From Motilibacter peucedani (GTDB lineage: Bacteria > Actinomycetota > Actinomycetes > Motilibacterales > Motilibacteraceae), in NCBI RefSeq assembly GCF_003634695.1, contig NZ_RBWV01000009.1:372001-436000 (forward strand): a DNA stretch of 64,000 bases, written 5' to 3'. Below are positions 6,687 to 15,147 of this stretch, piece after piece (within the stretch, counting starts at the first letter, position 1; each line of letters starts with the position of its first letter). The notes beneath the pieces were generated by a model, which saw nothing but the letters and a program-made list of their open reading frames with translations, did not search any database and was not told where the DNA came from. The position numbers and the translations under genes were made by a program.

Positions 6687-9600
6687 CTACCCCGCGAGCA
6701 ATGGGTCCAATAGCCCGGCGAGCCGCTCCTTCGCGGCGGCGCTCACCTTCGAGACCTTGGCGCCAGCGACCGCGCTCCTGAACTGCTGCAGCGCCGTACG
6801 CAGCCCGGTCGCGTCGCCCGCCGCCTGCGCCGACTCCGCCGTGGTGAGCAGCGCCTGCAGGTCGCGGGCGCTGCTCGAGGCGATGTCGCCGCTGCGCGCG
6901 AGCTCACCGGTCGCCTGGCGCAGGGCCGAGACGCCCGTCGGCAGGCCGAGCCCGGACTGCAGGAGCGCGCGCAGGCGGTCGCGCCCCGCGGCGTCGAGCT
7001 TCGACGCGCCCTCCGCCTCCGCTGTCCTGAGCAGTGCCCGGATCCTCGCGGCCGAGGCGGCCGAGCCGTCTTCGGCGGCGAGCGCCGACGCGAGACCGGT
7101 CACGTCACGGCCGAGGCTCGCCGCCACGTCCCCGCGCGTCGCGAGGTCGTAGCCGACGGCGTCGACGGCCGACGCGTACGACGTCTGCGGCGGGGCGTCC
7201 GCGGCCGCCGCACCCCACGAGGTGTCGGCGGTCGAGCGCAGCGCGTAGGAGATCGTGCCGCCCTTCGCCACGAACGACGCAGGCACCCACGGCTTGGTCG
7301 ACGTCTGGCCGTCGACGCTGACTCCCGCGATGTAGGCGTTGTCCGCCGACGCGTCGGGCGCGTCGATCGTGATGTCGACGCCGTTGGCGCGGTGCACGAC
7401 GGCCCGCGGGAACAGCGGCGTGGTCAGCACGAGGTCGGCGCGCGTCGGGACGCCGGGATACATGCCGAGGGCCGAGAACACCAGCCACGACGACATGGTG
7501 CCGGCGTCGTCGTTGCCCGGGATGCCGCCCGTCGTGTTGGTCCAGAGCCGGTCGATCTCGGCGCGGACCGTCGCCTGCGTCTTCCACGGCGCCCCGAGGT
7601 AGCTGTAGATGTAGGGCGCGTGGATGTCCGGCTCGTTGGTCGGGTCGTACTTCGTGGCGTTGCGGCCGGTGAGGTCGAAGTCGCCGTTGGTGGCGTGGAA
7701 GAAGTCGTCCAGCCGCTTCACCGCGACCTCGTTGCCGCCCATCGCCCGCGCGAGGCTGGTGACGTCGGAGTAGACCATCCAGGTGTAGCGCGCGCTCGTG
7801 CCCTCGACGAAGCCGTTCTCCGTGGCGGGCGTGAACCCGCTCGACCAGGCGCCGGTCGAGCTGCGGTCGCGCATGTAGCCGCTGAAGACCGGCGGCGCCG
7901 GGGGCAGTGCGCCGTTGAGGTCGTCGCTCAGCTGCAGCTCGGCGAGCTGGGTGAGCGGCGCGCCGCTGTTGGCGGTGACGTCGAGGCGGTAGTAGGTGAA
8001 CGAACCAGGGTGTGCCACCGAGAACTGCCGTGTCTGCCCGCGGTCCGAGAAGGCCTGCCCGTTCTGCGAGTCCACCGTGGTCCACGTCGTGCCGTCGTTC
8101 GAGCCCTGCAGCGCCCAGTCGCGCGGGTCGCGGGTCGGGGCGTCGTTGGCGCTCGTGAGCGCGTAGGCGATGACCGTCCGCGGACCGTCCAGCCGGTACT
8201 GCACCCGGCCGGTGGGGAAGTGCGTCAGCCACTTGCTGCTGACGTCGAGGTCGTTGAGGCTCGACGCCACCTCACCGGGCGGGTTCTCCTCGCTGGCCGA
8301 GATCTCGCGCACGTGCGAGGTGAGCGTGCCCGGCAGTGCCCACGACAGCGGGTTGGGCACGGGGCCGGCGAGGTCGTCGGTGAGCTGCAGCTCGGCGAGC
8401 TGGGTGTAGGGCTCACCGCTGTTGGCGGTCACGTTGAGCCGGTAGGCGGAGTACGCGCCGGGCGTCGTCACCGAGAACTGCTTGGTCTGGAAGCGGTCCG
8501 CGAAGGTCTGGCCGGAGCGCGAGTCCACTGTGGTCCAGGTCTTCCCGCCGTCGTTCGACCCCTGCAGGGTCCAGTCGCGCGGGTCGCGGCCGGGCGCGTC
8601 GTTGGCGCTCGTGAGCGCGTAGGACACGACCTTGACCGGGCTGGCGAAGGAGTACTGCACCCAGCCGGCGATCGCGGGGGTGAGCCACTTGCTGCCGGCA
8701 TCGCCGTCGTTGAGCCGCGCGCCGACCTCGTCGGGCGGGTTCTCGTCACTGGCCTTGACCGAGGTGACCGACTGGCGCAGCGTCCCCGGGATGGCGAGCT
8801 GCTCCGTCGTGGCCGTCGGGTCGAACACGTTGCGCCAGCTCTGCGACCGGGCGAGGAACGTCTCCGCGGTGCCCGTCTCGCCGAGCGCGCCGGCGAGCTG
8901 CGAGAGGCCGTAGTCGGCCGCCGCGTCCTCCAGCGTCTCGGACGCAGCGCCCCAGCAGTGGCAGTCGTCCGAGGGGACGTGGCCGAGCTGCTGGTAGCGG
9001 TCGACCGAGGGTCGCTGGCCGACGCACTCGACGTTGCAGCCGGCGTCGCTCAGGTCGTCCGGCGTCGCTACCGTGGCCGCCTTGACGAGCGAGTCGAACG
9101 CACCGCGGACGTCGAAGCTGCGCCCGCCGAACGCGTACACCGCCGCGACCGCCGCGGCCGCGGGATCGCCTGACATGACGCTGGTCTTGCCGTTCTGCAG
9201 CAGCCAGCGGTCCCAGTTCCCACCGCGCTGCTTCGCCAGGTTGAACAGCGACTGGGCGTAGTCGCTCGCCATGCCGGGGTCGAGCAGCGAGAGCAGCTGG
9301 ATCTGCGCGCGGTACTGGTCCCAGCCGGAGAACGTGGCGTACTCCGCGTGCTGACCCGGCTCGAGGGAGTGCGTCTCGCGGTCCGCGCCCTGGTAGCGCC
9401 CGTCGACGTCGCTGGCGAGCGTCGGCTCGAGCATCGCGTGGTAGAGCGCGGTGTAGAAGACGCTGCGCTGGTCGTCGGTGCCGCCTCCGATCTGGACGCG
9501 CCCCAACGCGTCCTTCCACTGCGCGTGCGCTGCCGCGCGGGTCGCGTCGAACGACTGCGCCCCCGGGTTCTCCGCCGCGAGGTTCTTCTCCGCGCCGGCG

Positions 9601-10535
9601 ACGCTGACGTAGGAGACGGCGACCTTGAGACCCACGTGCGTGGTCCCGGGCGCGAAGGTGACGTAGCCACCGGAGCCGCGGCCAGCGTTGGGGTTGCCGC
9701 CGGCGTCGTAGCCGGTGCCCCCGCTGGCCGAGGTCGAGCCGGGGCTCAGCGTGCCGTCCTTCCACGTGCCGACGGCTGCGAAGGGCGTGTCGAAGTGGGC
9801 CGTGAAGTAGACGGTGTAGTTGTCCTTGCGGTTGTTCTCGCTCTGCGGCCCGCAGAAGTTGCCGCTGTCGACTGAGCCGCTGACCGTGCCGGTGGCCCGG
9901 TCGATCGAGACCGTCGCGCCCGCGCTGCCGCTCTCGGCCATCGAGGTGCGGAACAGCATGCTCGCTGGCTTGTCACCCGGGAACGCGAAGCGGCCGCTGC
10001 CCGTGCGGGCGGTGCTCGTCAGCTCGACGCCTGCGCCGCTCGCCAGGCGCACGCCGTAGTAGCCGGCGCTCGCCGTCTCGTCCGTGTGCGCGTACGTGCT
10101 GGCGTACTTCGCGTCGCCCGTGTCCGACGCGGGCGAGCTGTCGACGGCACCGACGTAGGGCATCACCGGGAGCTCGCCCTCGGCGCCGGAGCAGCCGACG
10201 CCCGACAGGTGCGTCAGCCCGAAGCCGCGGATGCGCGGGGCGGTGTAGTCGTAGCCGCCGGGCGCCGGGTTCGAGACCTGGTTGCCGAAGGAGGTCTGCG
10301 GGCTCCACGACAGCAGGCCGAACGGCACGACGGCGCCGGGGTAGACGTTGCCCGCGTTGGTCGTACCGATCATCGGGTTCACGTAGGCCGCCGGGTCGAC
10401 CACCAGCGGCACCTGCGCGGCCGCCGAGGCGGGCGCGGCGGCAACGGTCGCGGCGGTGACCGCGACGGCGACGGCGGACGCTGCCAGCCGGGCCCGGGCA
10501 GCCGGTCGTCGGCGTGGGAAGGGGGTTCGGTGCAT
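6687..10535 (-). CDS. secreted GH92 alpha-mannosidase with two internal discoidin (F5/8 C, CBM32-like) domains
   Basis: 1282 residues. A signal peptide (about 1-38, cut near ASAAAQ) is followed by the GH92 N-terminal sandwich (NPMIGTTNAGNVYPGAVVPF) and an alpha/alpha barrel (FSGWDQYRAQIQLLSLLDPG). Conserved late motifs are NEPDIHAPYIYSYLG near 966 and GNDDAGTMSSW near 1005, which carry the general acid and base region of the family. GH92 enzymes are calcium-dependent inverting exo-mannosidases (alpha-1,2, -1,3, -1,4 or -1,6) acting on N-glycans, yeast mannan or mannosylated surface polymers. Unusually, two 151-residue discoidin domains (about 590-735 and 741-886) sit inside the catalytic barrel, between FDPTATTEQL and FSGYMRDRS. 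About 180 helical residues follow the catalytic part. No transporter is adjacent; a palindromic operator lies upstream. Confidence 0.93.
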   Translation of the reverse strand: MHRTPFPRRRPAARARLAASAVAVAVTAATVAAAPASAAAQVPLVVDPAAYVNPMIGTTNAGNVYPGAVVPFGLLSWSPQTSFGNQVSNPAPGGYDYTAPRIRGFGLTHLSGVGCSGAEGELPVMPYVGAVDSSPASDTGDAKYASTYAHTDETASAGYYGVRLASGAGVELTSTARTGSGRFAFPGDKPASMLFRTSMAESGSAGATVSIDRATGTVSGSVDSGNFCGPQSENNRKDNYTVYFTAHFDTPFAAVGTWKDGTLSPGSTSASGGTGYDAGGNPNAGRGSGGYVTFAPGTTHVGLKVAVSYVSVAGAEKNLAAENPGAQSFDATRAAAHAQWKDALGRVQIGGGTDDQRSVFYTALYHAMLEPTLASDVDGRYQGADRETHSLEPGQHAEYATFSGWDQYRAQIQLLSLLDPGMASDYAQSLFNLAKQRGGNWDRWLLQNGKTSVMSGDPAAAAVAAVYAFGGRSFDVRGAFDSLVKAATVATPDDLSDAGCNVECVGQRPSVDRYQQLGHVPSDDCHCWGAASETLEDAAADYGLSQLAGALGETGTAETFLARSQSWRNVFDPTATTEQLAIPGTLRQSVTSVKASDENPPDEVGARLNDGDAGSKWLTPAIAGWVQYSFASPVKVVSYALTSANDAPGRDPRDWTLQGSNDGGKTWTTVDSRSGQTFADRFQTKQFSVTTPGAYSAYRLNVTANSGEPYTQLAELQLTDDLAGPVPNPLSWALPGTLTSHVREISASEENPPGEVASSLNDLDVSSKWLTHFPTGRVQYRLDGPRTVIAYALTSANDAPTRDPRDWALQGSNDGTTWTTVDSQNGQAFSDRGQTRQFSVAHPGSFTYYRLDVTANSGAPLTQLAELQLSDDLNGALPPAPPVFSGYMRDRSSTGAWSSGFTPATENGFVEGTSARYTWMVYSDVTSLARAMGGNEVAVKRLDDFFHATNGDFDLTGRNATKYDPTNEPDIHAPYIYSYLGAPWKTQATVRAEIDRLWTNTTGGIPGNDDAGTMSSWLVFSALGMYPGVPTRADLVLTTPLFPRAVVHRANGVDITIDAPDASADNAYIAGVSVDGQTSTKPWVPASFVAKGGTISYALRSTADTSWGAAAADAPPQTSYASAVDAVGYDLATRGDVAASLGRDVTGLASALAAEDGSAASAARIRALLRTAEAEGASKLDAAGRDRLRALLQSGLGLPTGVSALRQATGELARSGDIASSSARDLQALLTTAESAQAAGDATGLRTALQQFRSAVAGAKVSKVSAAAKERLAGLLDPLLAG
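7921..8793 (-). repeat. tandem duplication of a discoidin-domain coding unit, period 453 bp
   Basis: Units at about 7921-8340 and 8374-8793 align at an offset of exactly 453 bp (151 codons). Both contain the same order of strings, for example CTGCAGCTCGGCGAGCTGGG, the Asn-rich TANSG segment and SKWLT. The two copies have diverged at many positions, so this is a domain duplication that has been kept rather than a fresh copy. Confidence 0.85.
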
Positions 10536-12352: not shown

Positions 12353-12387
12353 GGACGACGGTGCGCCGCGCGCGACCGGTGCACGAC

Positions 12388-13238
12388 CTAGTGGCCCGAG
12401 CTCTCGTAGCGCACGAGCCCCCGCCGGAAGAGCCACGCGCCCAGGCCGAGGCAGTACGCCGCGACCAGCGGGGTGAGCAGGCCGACCTGCCAGAGGTGCC
12501 GGTCCTGAAGCAGAGCGGTCGCGGGCAGGAAGCTCATGAACGCGTACGGCAGCGCCACCGTCAGCACGATCCGCACCCGTTCTCGATGTTCGCCTTCGCG
12601 ATGCACACGCTCGGCGAGCTCGCCCGCTTCCCGCTCACGATCTACGGCATCGGCGGTGAGCTGAGCCAGAAGCCCGCGCAGTTCGTCGCGAGGTTCAGCC
12701 CGACCTTCACCAGGACTGCGCTCAGCAGCAGGACGGCCGCGAGCACGACCCGCCCGGGGCTCCAGTCGACGTCGACGTGCACGAGCGCGGCCACGAGCAG
12801 CCCGCCCCCGACGGCCAGGTTGCCGAGGCCGTTCATGCCGACCTGCGAGCTCAGGACCTGCAGCATCGGCGAGTACGGCCGCACCAGTGCCACGTCGAGC
12901 TCGCCGGTGTTGACGGTCCACGCGAGGCTCCACGCGCCCTGTGCCAACAGCACCGCGACGCCCTCGCCGACGGCGACCAGCGAGTAGATGAGGGCGAGGT
13001 CCCAGAACCGCCAGCCGTTGAACTGCGGGATCGCCCGGAAGACCGCCGACAGCAGCACCACTCCGACGCCCTGCGTCAGGAGGGCGGCGACGGTGAGCAC
13101 CCAGAAGTCCCGCTCGTACTCGAGGGTCGAGCGCAGGTGCGCGCCGAGGCAGCGCCGGTAGAGCCAGACCGCCCGGCGCAGGCGCGCGGTCGGCGTCGCC
13201 GCCAGCGGGGGCAGGACCTCCCACGCGTCCGTCGCCAC
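12388..13238 (-). pseudogene. ABC-2-type permease (second exporter permease), broken by an internal inversion
   Basis: GTG at 13238, 4 bp downstream of the first permease gene. The N-terminal two thirds read normally (membrane spans such as DLALIYSLVAVGEGVAVLLAQ, then LVRPYSPMLQVLSSQVG) until NCAGFW, then hit a stop at 12642. The C-terminal 45 residues (VRIVLTVALPYAFMSFLPAT and on to 12388) are in another frame. The missing middle, MHTLGELARFPLTIYG, is present but on the opposite strand at 12601-12648. The gene is therefore intact in content but has about 80 bp flipped, with a net frame change. The product would be truncated by roughly 80 residues and probably inactive. Partner of the ATPase at 14070 and the permease at 13243. 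Confidence 0.82.
12577..12659 (+). other. inverted segment inside the ABC-2 permease gene
   Basis: On the plus strand this stretch encodes MFAFAMHTLGELARFPLTIY, the amphipathic stretch expected in ABC-2 family permeases between NCAGFW and VRIVLTVALPYAF, both of which are encoded on the minus strand on either side. Boundaries are approximate. No long inverted repeats flank it; the only similarity is a weak CnCACC match. Confidence 0.75.
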
Positions 13239-13242
13239 CTGG

Positions 13243-14073
13243 TCAGCCCCCGTGCACCGTGAGCTGGCGGCTCGCAGCGCTCCACAGCGCGCGCGTCCCG
13301 AGCCACAGCGCGACTGTCCAGGCCGCCTGCACCGCGACGGCGACGACTGCCGCACGGCCGTCCAGCTCGCCGGCGAAGAGCAGCGCCGGCGTGGACGCCA
13401 TGCCGGCGAAGGGCAGCGCCGCGGCCAGCACGTGCAGCCAGTGCGGCAGGAACGCCAGCGGCACGAGCGCACCGGAGAACAGCGACACGAGCGCGACGCG
13501 TCCCGCCTGGACGCCGACGTAGTTCTGCGTCCAGAACACCGCCATCGCGCTCGCGTAGACGATGCCGAACCGCAGCGGCAGCACGAGCAGGACGCTCAGC
13601 ACCAGCAGCGGCAGGGTGCCGAGCGGCGGGCCGGGGATGCCACCGAAGGCCACTGCCGCGACCGCCACGACGACGAGCGCGGTCCCCAGCTCGTAGACCG
13701 CGAAGCCCACAGCCTCCGCGAAGCGTGCGGCCTGGTAGTCCACCGGGCGGACGAGGTCGAGGGCGACCTCGCCGCGCTGGATGCGGAACGCCATGCGGTA
13801 GTCGACCCAGCTCGACGGTAGCGAGCCTGCCGCGAACGCCACCAACAGGTACGCCTTCATGTGCGGCCAGTCGAACCCCTGCGAGGTGGCGCTGGAACCC
13901 AGCACTGCGTGCCACAGGTAGAGCATCGCCAGCGCTGAGAACACCGACGCCAGCACGCCGAACAGGAAGGTGACCTGGTAGGCCAGCAAGGAGCGCAGCG
14001 CCGCGCGGGCCAGTGCCCGGTAGGCGACGAGCGGCGCCCCGCGTCGCAGGGCGGGCAGCGCCCCGGGGATCAC
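13243..14073 (-). CDS. ABC-2-type transporter permease
   Basis: 276 residues, six predicted membrane helices, of the ABC-2 family typified by actinobacterial daunorubicin-like or uncharacterised exporters (COG4587). The DYRMAFRIQRGEVALDLVRP segment is the characteristic coupling region before the second membrane block. Its ATG overlaps the stop of the ATPase gene (ATGA), and the second permease begins 4 bp after its stop, giving an operon ATPase, permease 1, permease 2. Since the second permease is disrupted, this subunit may have lost its partner. Substrate unknown. Confidence 0.88.
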   Translation of the reverse strand: MIPGALPALRRGAPLVAYRALARAALRSLLAYQVTFLFGVLASVFSALAMLYLWHAVLGSSATSQGFDWPHMKAYLLVAFAAGSLPSSWVDYRMAFRIQRGEVALDLVRPVDYQAARFAEAVGFAVYELGTALVVVAVAAVAFGGIPGPPLGTLPLLVLSVLLVLPLRFGIVYASAMAVFWTQNYVGVQAGRVALVSLFSGALVPLAFLPHWLHVLAAALPFAGMASTPALLFAGELDGRAAVVAVAVQAAWTVALWLGTRALWSAASRQLTVHGG

Positions 14074-15089
14074 GCGACCCCCTCCGCCCCCGGGCGCAGC
14101 TCGCCGGCGTAGACCTTGCGCACGACGTCCTCGATCGCGGGCTCGTCGATGCGTACGTCCACGACCTCCGCCTCTGCGGAGGCTGCGGCGAGCACGTCGA
14201 CCGCGCTGACCGCCAGCCGGTCGAACGTGACGGTCAGCTCCCGGTCGGTGGCACCGTCGGACACCCGTGCGAGCGGGAGGCGGGCGGCGATCCCGCCCGC
14301 CGACGCCGGCGGCTCGGCCAGGGTCAGGTGCATGACCCGGTCACGGGCGTACGCGTCCTTCACCGCCTGCAGGTCGCCGTCGTAGACGATGCGGCCGCCG
14401 TCGAGGATGACCAGCCGTCGGCAGATGTCCTCGATGTCGCCGAGGTCGTGCGTCGTGAGCATGACCGTCGTGCCGTCGGCGACGATCTGCCTGACGAAGG
14501 CGCGCACGCGGTCCTTGACGGCGAGGTCGAGCCCGATCGTGGGCTCGTCGAGGTAGACGATCGAGGGCTCGTGGACGAGCGCCGCGGCGAGGTCGGCCCG
14601 CATGCGCTGGCCGAGCGAGAGCTTGCGGGCCGTCGTAGGGAGCAGCTCGCCCAGCTCCAGGACGGCGTCGAGGCGCTCGAGCACCTGGGCGTAGCGCTTC
14701 GGGCCGATCCCGTGCATGTCGCGCAGCAGCGCGAGGGAGTCCTGCACCGGCAGGTCCCACCACAGCTGGGTGCGTTGGCCGAAGACCACGCCGATGCGCC
14801 GCGCGTTCTCGACCCGGTTCTCGTGCGGCACGAGCCCGGCCACCCGCACTGAGCCCGCAGTCGGCACCAGGATGCCGCTCAGCATCTTGACCGTCGTCGA
14901 CTTGCCGGCGCCGTTGGGGCCGACGTATGCCACCGCCTCTCCGGCCTCCACCGCGAGATCGACGCCGGCCACGGCCACCTGCTCGGTGTAGCGACGCCGC
15001 ACGAGGTGGCGCAGCGACCCCCGCAGTCCCGGGTCCTTGTCGGGGCGGCGGAACACCTTGGTCAGACCCTCGGCCTCCAGCAGCGGCAC
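14070..15089 (-). CDS. ABC transporter ATP-binding protein (ABC-2 exporter)
   Basis: 339 residues. Walker A GPNGAGKST near 57-65, Q-loop FGQRTQLWWDLPVQD, signature LSLGQRMRADLAAALVHEP, Walker B IVYLDEPTIGLD and switch His in TTHDLGDIEDICRR. After about residue 235 comes a C-terminal extension common to this exporter subfamily. The FGQRTQLWWDLP Q-loop is diagnostic for the ATPases that pair with two COG4587/COG3694 permeases. It is the first gene of the exporter operon. Substrate not predictable. Confidence 0.92.
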   Translation of the reverse strand: MPLLEAEGLTKVFRRPDKDPGLRGSLRHLVRRRYTEQVAVAGVDLAVEAGEAVAYVGPNGAGKSTTVKMLSGILVPTAGSVRVAGLVPHENRVENARRIGVVFGQRTQLWWDLPVQDSLALLRDMHGIGPKRYAQVLERLDAVLELGELLPTTARKLSLGQRMRADLAAALVHEPSIVYLDEPTIGLDLAVKDRVRAFVRQIVADGTTVMLTTHDLGDIEDICRRLVILDGGRIVYDGDLQAVKDAYARDRVMHLTLAEPPASAGGIAARLPLARVSDGATDRELTVTFDRLAVSAVDVLAAASAEAEVVDVRIDEPAIEDVVRKVYAGELRPGAEGVA

Positions 15090-15101
15090 CCGGCGAGTGT
15101 G

Positions 15102-15147
15102 CCAGCCGCGGAGCGGCTGGGACCAGTGCTTTCCGGAAGGTTTCCGG
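15102..15147 (-). terminator. two adjacent hairpins downstream of the PEP-mutase-like gene
   Basis: CCAGCCG-cggag-CGGCTGG (15102-15120, perfect 7-bp arms) and CCGGAA-ggt-TTCCGG (15133-15147) fill the gap between the stop at 15163 and the exporter ATPase start at 15089. No U tract. They probably separate the two transcription units. Confidence 0.45.

Follow-up and report, generated by a model that had tools for sequence, protein, structure and literature searches.

How does a permease gene come to carry its own missing middle on the opposite strand? In the window analysed here (64,000 nucleotides of the Motilibacter peucedani contig NZ_RBWV01000009.1), an ABC-2 permease gene on the minus strand loses its reading frame, and the lost family segment lies on the plus strand at the same place. 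The locus therefore raises the question of what kind of event brought this about, how long ago, with what effect on the transporter, and whether the assembly is a faithful picture of the chromosome at this point.

The permease gene and its operon

The operon is read from the minus strand in the order ATPase, permease 1 and permease 2, the last running from about 13238 downwards, and both permeases match PF06182 (ABC2_membrane_6, ABC-2 family transporter protein):

14070-15089, minus strand: ABC transporter ATPase, intact, DrrA-like (PF00005, E 4.5e-24; the best NCBIfam model, TIGR01188, is below its cut-off)
13243-14073, minus strand: permease 1, intact (PF06182 positions 6-229)
12642-13238, minus strand: N-terminal part of permease 2, with a likely GTG start at 13236-13238 (PF06182 positions 2-141, E 1.6e-22; 83-84% amino acid identity to the ortholog)
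12391-12576, minus strand: C-terminal remnant of permease 2, VRIVLTVALPYAF...ESSGH, with its stop at 12388-12390 (PF06182 positions 168-229; 82% amino acid identity to ortholog residues 217-278)

No PF06182 gene was found in the genome besides permease 2 and its operon partner. Both belong to the family, but permease 2 has no full-length match in one frame: the profile matches it twice, in different frames, and positions 142-167 between the two matches are lacking on the coding strand, after which the gene is out of frame. Its minus-strand frame, ending in NCAGFWLSSPPMP (also given as LATNCAGFWLSSPPMP), closes at a stop codon at 12642-12644 that the flipped piece creates, and the family sequence resumes on the minus strand at VRIVLTVALPYAF (12576 downwards) in another frame than the N-terminal part. 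The gap of 26 profile positions corresponds to 78 bp, matching the size of the antisense piece, and the missing positions are found on the plus strand.

The reference for these comparisons is an ortholog from the same genus (G001:C4:188459-189295), an intact gene of 279 amino acids that matches PF06182 positions 2-229, reads WLASPFPMFAFSMHTLGELARFPITIYGMGVRVALTVALPYAF in one frame and is 83-84% identical to permease 2 over the N-terminal part. The outgroup consists of this one close ortholog, about 80% identical, on which the exact junctions depend. A search of the other three genomes of the family gave no ortholog, and among 395 genomes of the class the best relative is only 33% identical; because there are no additional close orthologs, the timing of the event cannot be refined further.

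The three-gene ABC cassette (12385-15116) has about 81% DNA identity to G001:C4:186579-189301, where the sequence past both ends is unaligned, and the two genomes of the genus carry it at different locations. Gene order between them is strongly scrambled (G000 C9 against G001 C1/C4), with almost no shared blocks beyond a few kb in the compared parts. Elsewhere in the window, positions 6690-10535 encode a large secreted protein of glycoside hydrolase family 92, in which two F5/8 type C domains are inserted between the two stretches that match the catalytic domain and a FIMAH domain lies at the C-terminus.

The inverted segment and its junctions

Comparison with the ortholog places the flipped piece and its edges as follows:

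12577-12655, plus strand: inverted segment, 79 bp, encoding PFSMFAFAMHTLGELARFPLTIYGIG opposite to the host gene (BLASTN 73/79; tblastn to ortholog residues 191-226)
12654-12655, no strand: junction toward the gene start, with 2 bp (CG) assignable to flank or segment (ortholog comparison)
12576-12577, no strand: junction toward the gene end, without clear microhomology (ortholog comparison)
12574-12577, plus strand: CACC, which pairs with GGTG at 12655-12658 as the left and right arms of an inverted repeat of 3-4 nt directly at the segment edges, 3 nt outward and 1 nt inward; not significant

Read in reverse complement, the segment corresponds to the intact ortholog at the same place and between collinear flanks, as expected of a microinversion. 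By BLASTN it matches the opposite strand of the ortholog at 92% of its positions (E ~1e-23 to 1e-24), the rest of the alignment being collinear; the DNA alignment of the operon against G001 is likewise collinear at about 80%, with 12577-12655 as the sole exception. The ortholog protein, compared with the genome by tblastn, matches the minus strand with residues 6-194, the plus strand with 191-226 and the minus strand again with 217-278. The derived state is the inverted order, the PF06182 profile having the order of the intact ortholog, which is the one close relative serving as outgroup. No uninverted second copy is present in the assembly.

A chance antisense similarity in a gene broken in some other way could be entertained, given that long open antisense frames are frequent in high-GC coding DNA (a 208-amino-acid plus-strand ORF lies here). 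The match, however, sits at the exact homologous position and fills the gap exactly, and the reverse complements of other aligned 79-mers of the operon agree at a mean of 32.5 of 79 positions (SD 3.4, maximum 49), against 73 for the segment (z ~12). The BLAST E-values and this operon null refute the chance explanation, whose probability is close to nil. The segment might also appear unusually conserved, with synonymous changes at 2 of 18 sites, but 6.9% of the other 79-bp operon windows are equally or more similar, and this candidate was rejected.

The interval between the conserved TTCTGGCTC and the GTGCGG codon pair measures 98 bp in this gene, against 96 bp in the ortholog, a net gain of 2 bp. 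One or a few bases appear to be duplicated at the edges, single-base statements being tentative against an ortholog about 20% diverged. The original prediction, made from the letters of the sequence and their open reading frames, thus fares well on the event itself: the microinversion of about 80 bp in an ABC-2 permease gene is borne out by the opposite-strand match, the loss of frame and the mutually out-of-frame flanks by the two intervals, the gain or loss of bases at a junction by the extra 2 bp, and the improbability of a chance match by the operon null. Of its coordinates, 12577-12659, the start is exact and the end lies 4 bp too far, at 12659 instead of 12655. It had also named close relatives with the same minus-strand sequence in a working permease as what would refute it; the one close relative has the uninverted order and an intact gene, which speaks against refutation.

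Possible origins of the inversion

A reversible, phase-variable segment flipped by a recombinase (an intragenic inverton) would likewise switch the gene off by inversion within it, and the genome encodes one serine recombinase of the resolvase/invertase family, though on a different contig. Invertons have inverted repeats of 10-40 nt (PMC11892184); like them, the present case is a short DNA segment inverted within a gene, but it has no arms, no nearby recombinase was found and the open frame is not recoverable. A repeat search at the segment edges gave no inverted-repeat arms of 10-40 nt: no perfect inverted pair near the edges is longer than 5 bp, a length that random positions equalled or exceeded in 58 of 60 trials, in agreement with the earlier statement that no long inverted repeats flank the segment. 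Among the neighbouring genes tested, which are metabolic or transport genes, no recombinase domain was found. Because of the 2-bp length difference, re-inversion cannot restore the frame. The switchable segment, raised earlier as an alternative, is disfavoured by this net change together with the missing repeat arms, and we consider it very improbable.

The abutting CACC/GGTG repeat is no better than chance: 3.5% of random positions reach a run of 4 in fixed register, and P rises to ~0.5 once slack is permitted as in the work on primates (PMC8755829). A perfect 12-bp palindrome, GGCGAGCTCGCC, lies near the segment middle (12613-12624); such palindromes are common in this 74% GC sequence (the window has 57, which gives an expectation of 0.07 per 79 bp), and it is unsupported as a cause.

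The explanation that we favour, and hold to be probable, is one recent microinversion by template switching or microhomology-mediated repair that inactivated the permease. In a single mutation, 79 bp of the gene would have been swapped for their own reverse complement with a net gain of 2 bp: at a single fork, or in the course of microhomology-mediated break-induced repair, a nascent strand would cross over to the complementary strand, copy about 79 nt backwards, and return displaced by a few bases, with small duplications at the edges as a result. Short inversions have been described as products of template switching (PMC7954356; in yeast genes, PMC8604942), and for microinversions with very short repeats a route by microhomology-mediated break-induced replication has been put forward (PMC8755829). 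We infer that template switching is the likeliest mechanism; microhomology-mediated break-induced replication would give the same product, and either route would leave junctions that are copied and non-conservative, like those observed. The net gain, the 2-bp ambiguity at one junction and the short duplications appear to fit copying better than a conservative cut-and-flip, and the edge duplications, tentatively, copying or fill-in better than a conservative flip. Against copying stand the length, which exceeds the 17-33 bp of the primate cases (PMC8755829), and the chance-level edge repeats.

Breakage followed by Ku-dependent end joining would also produce a real inversion, the fill-in of staggered ends supplying the extra bases. 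Ku is encoded in the genome (PF02735, E 5.8e-50), and the near-blunt junctions and net 2-bp gain fit this route, which nevertheless demands two breaks 79 bp apart and retention of the freed fragment. Copying is ranked above it because it takes one event and frees no 79-bp fragment, and end joining is accordingly judged improbable. The original preference for template switching over a recombinase hence stands as regards the recombinase, in view of the absent arms and the 2-bp change, whereas the template route would be the likeliest choice beside a possible Ku-dependent one.

With the inversion in place, translation of permease 2 would stop prematurely after about 198 residues, and the protein would lack what follows ortholog residue 191, including the last hydrophobic segments and a stretch that is cytoplasmic or serves in coupling.

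Age, isolation and meaning of the event

Divergence from the relative is similar in the two parts of permease 2 and in permease 1 next to it (N-terminal part, dN 0.108 and dS 0.55; C-terminal part, dN 0.088 and dS 0.45; permease 1, dN 0.114 and dS 0.54), which indicates that the gene was under selection until recently. In both remnants dN/dS is ~0.2, and the segment, translated in its own frame, has few changes, synonymous or nonsynonymous. Neither the remnants nor the neighbouring genes show signs of relaxed selection; the event is therefore recent relative to the split of the two species, or else an artefact.

An assembly, library or sequencing artefact, with the real chromosome uninverted, would account equally for this recency; assembly error had been raised in the original prediction as an alternative, and the genome is a draft in 17 contigs. 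Amplification is known to produce chimeric inverted molecules as by-products (PMC9484634). The site, however, lies deep inside a contig, at 384.6 kb of 740 kb and far from its ends, and the assembly holds no other copy. Where no repeats flank it, the balanced inversion of an internal segment of 79 bp is not known as a usual assembler error. In a comparison of 456 kb of the contig with about 1.77 Mb from the relative, 12577-12655 was the sole opposite-strand piece within a collinear match in the 103 kb that aligned to G001 at a level of at least 74%, a small part of the genome; a systematic assembly problem was rejected on this absence of a second microinversion. The assembly is thus presumably correct here, and an artefact unlikely.

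Taken as a recent microinversion, the locus adds one more case to a class of mutation that is already known. The primate microinversions analysed span 17-33 bp, are mostly pure and have repeats tightly at their edges (PMC8755829). As in those, a short segment has become its own reverse complement, very short repeats can suffice, and repair or copying has been proposed; unlike those, the present segment lies in a bacterial gene, measures 79 bp, comes with 2 additional bp and lacks significant repeats. The case also resembles the four-point template-switch model (PMC7954356) and the spacer inversions of yeast (PMC8604942), in which local reverse-strand copying inverts a piece within a gene, with possibly non-conservative junctions; the yeast inversions, however, comprise 2-5 bp between arms of >9 bp and keep the frame, whereas here the piece is long and armless and the gene is broken.

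The locus offers a clear, datable case of such a mutation in a coding gene of a bacterium: the sequences have diverged enough for the inversion to be proved, yet the gene has decayed too little for the event to be old. Microinversions resemble plain frameshifts to annotation pipelines, and their frequency in bacteria is therefore poorly known. It is a speculative and rather doubtful extension that gene inactivation by repeat-independent microinversions of about 80 bp is real and under-reported in Ku-carrying high-GC bacteria, where gene callers would record the outcome as commonplace truncations or frameshifts. Beyond the mutation class, the finding concerns one broken transporter in one strain, in which, judging from the coding sequence, the ABC-2 exporter is probably inactive.
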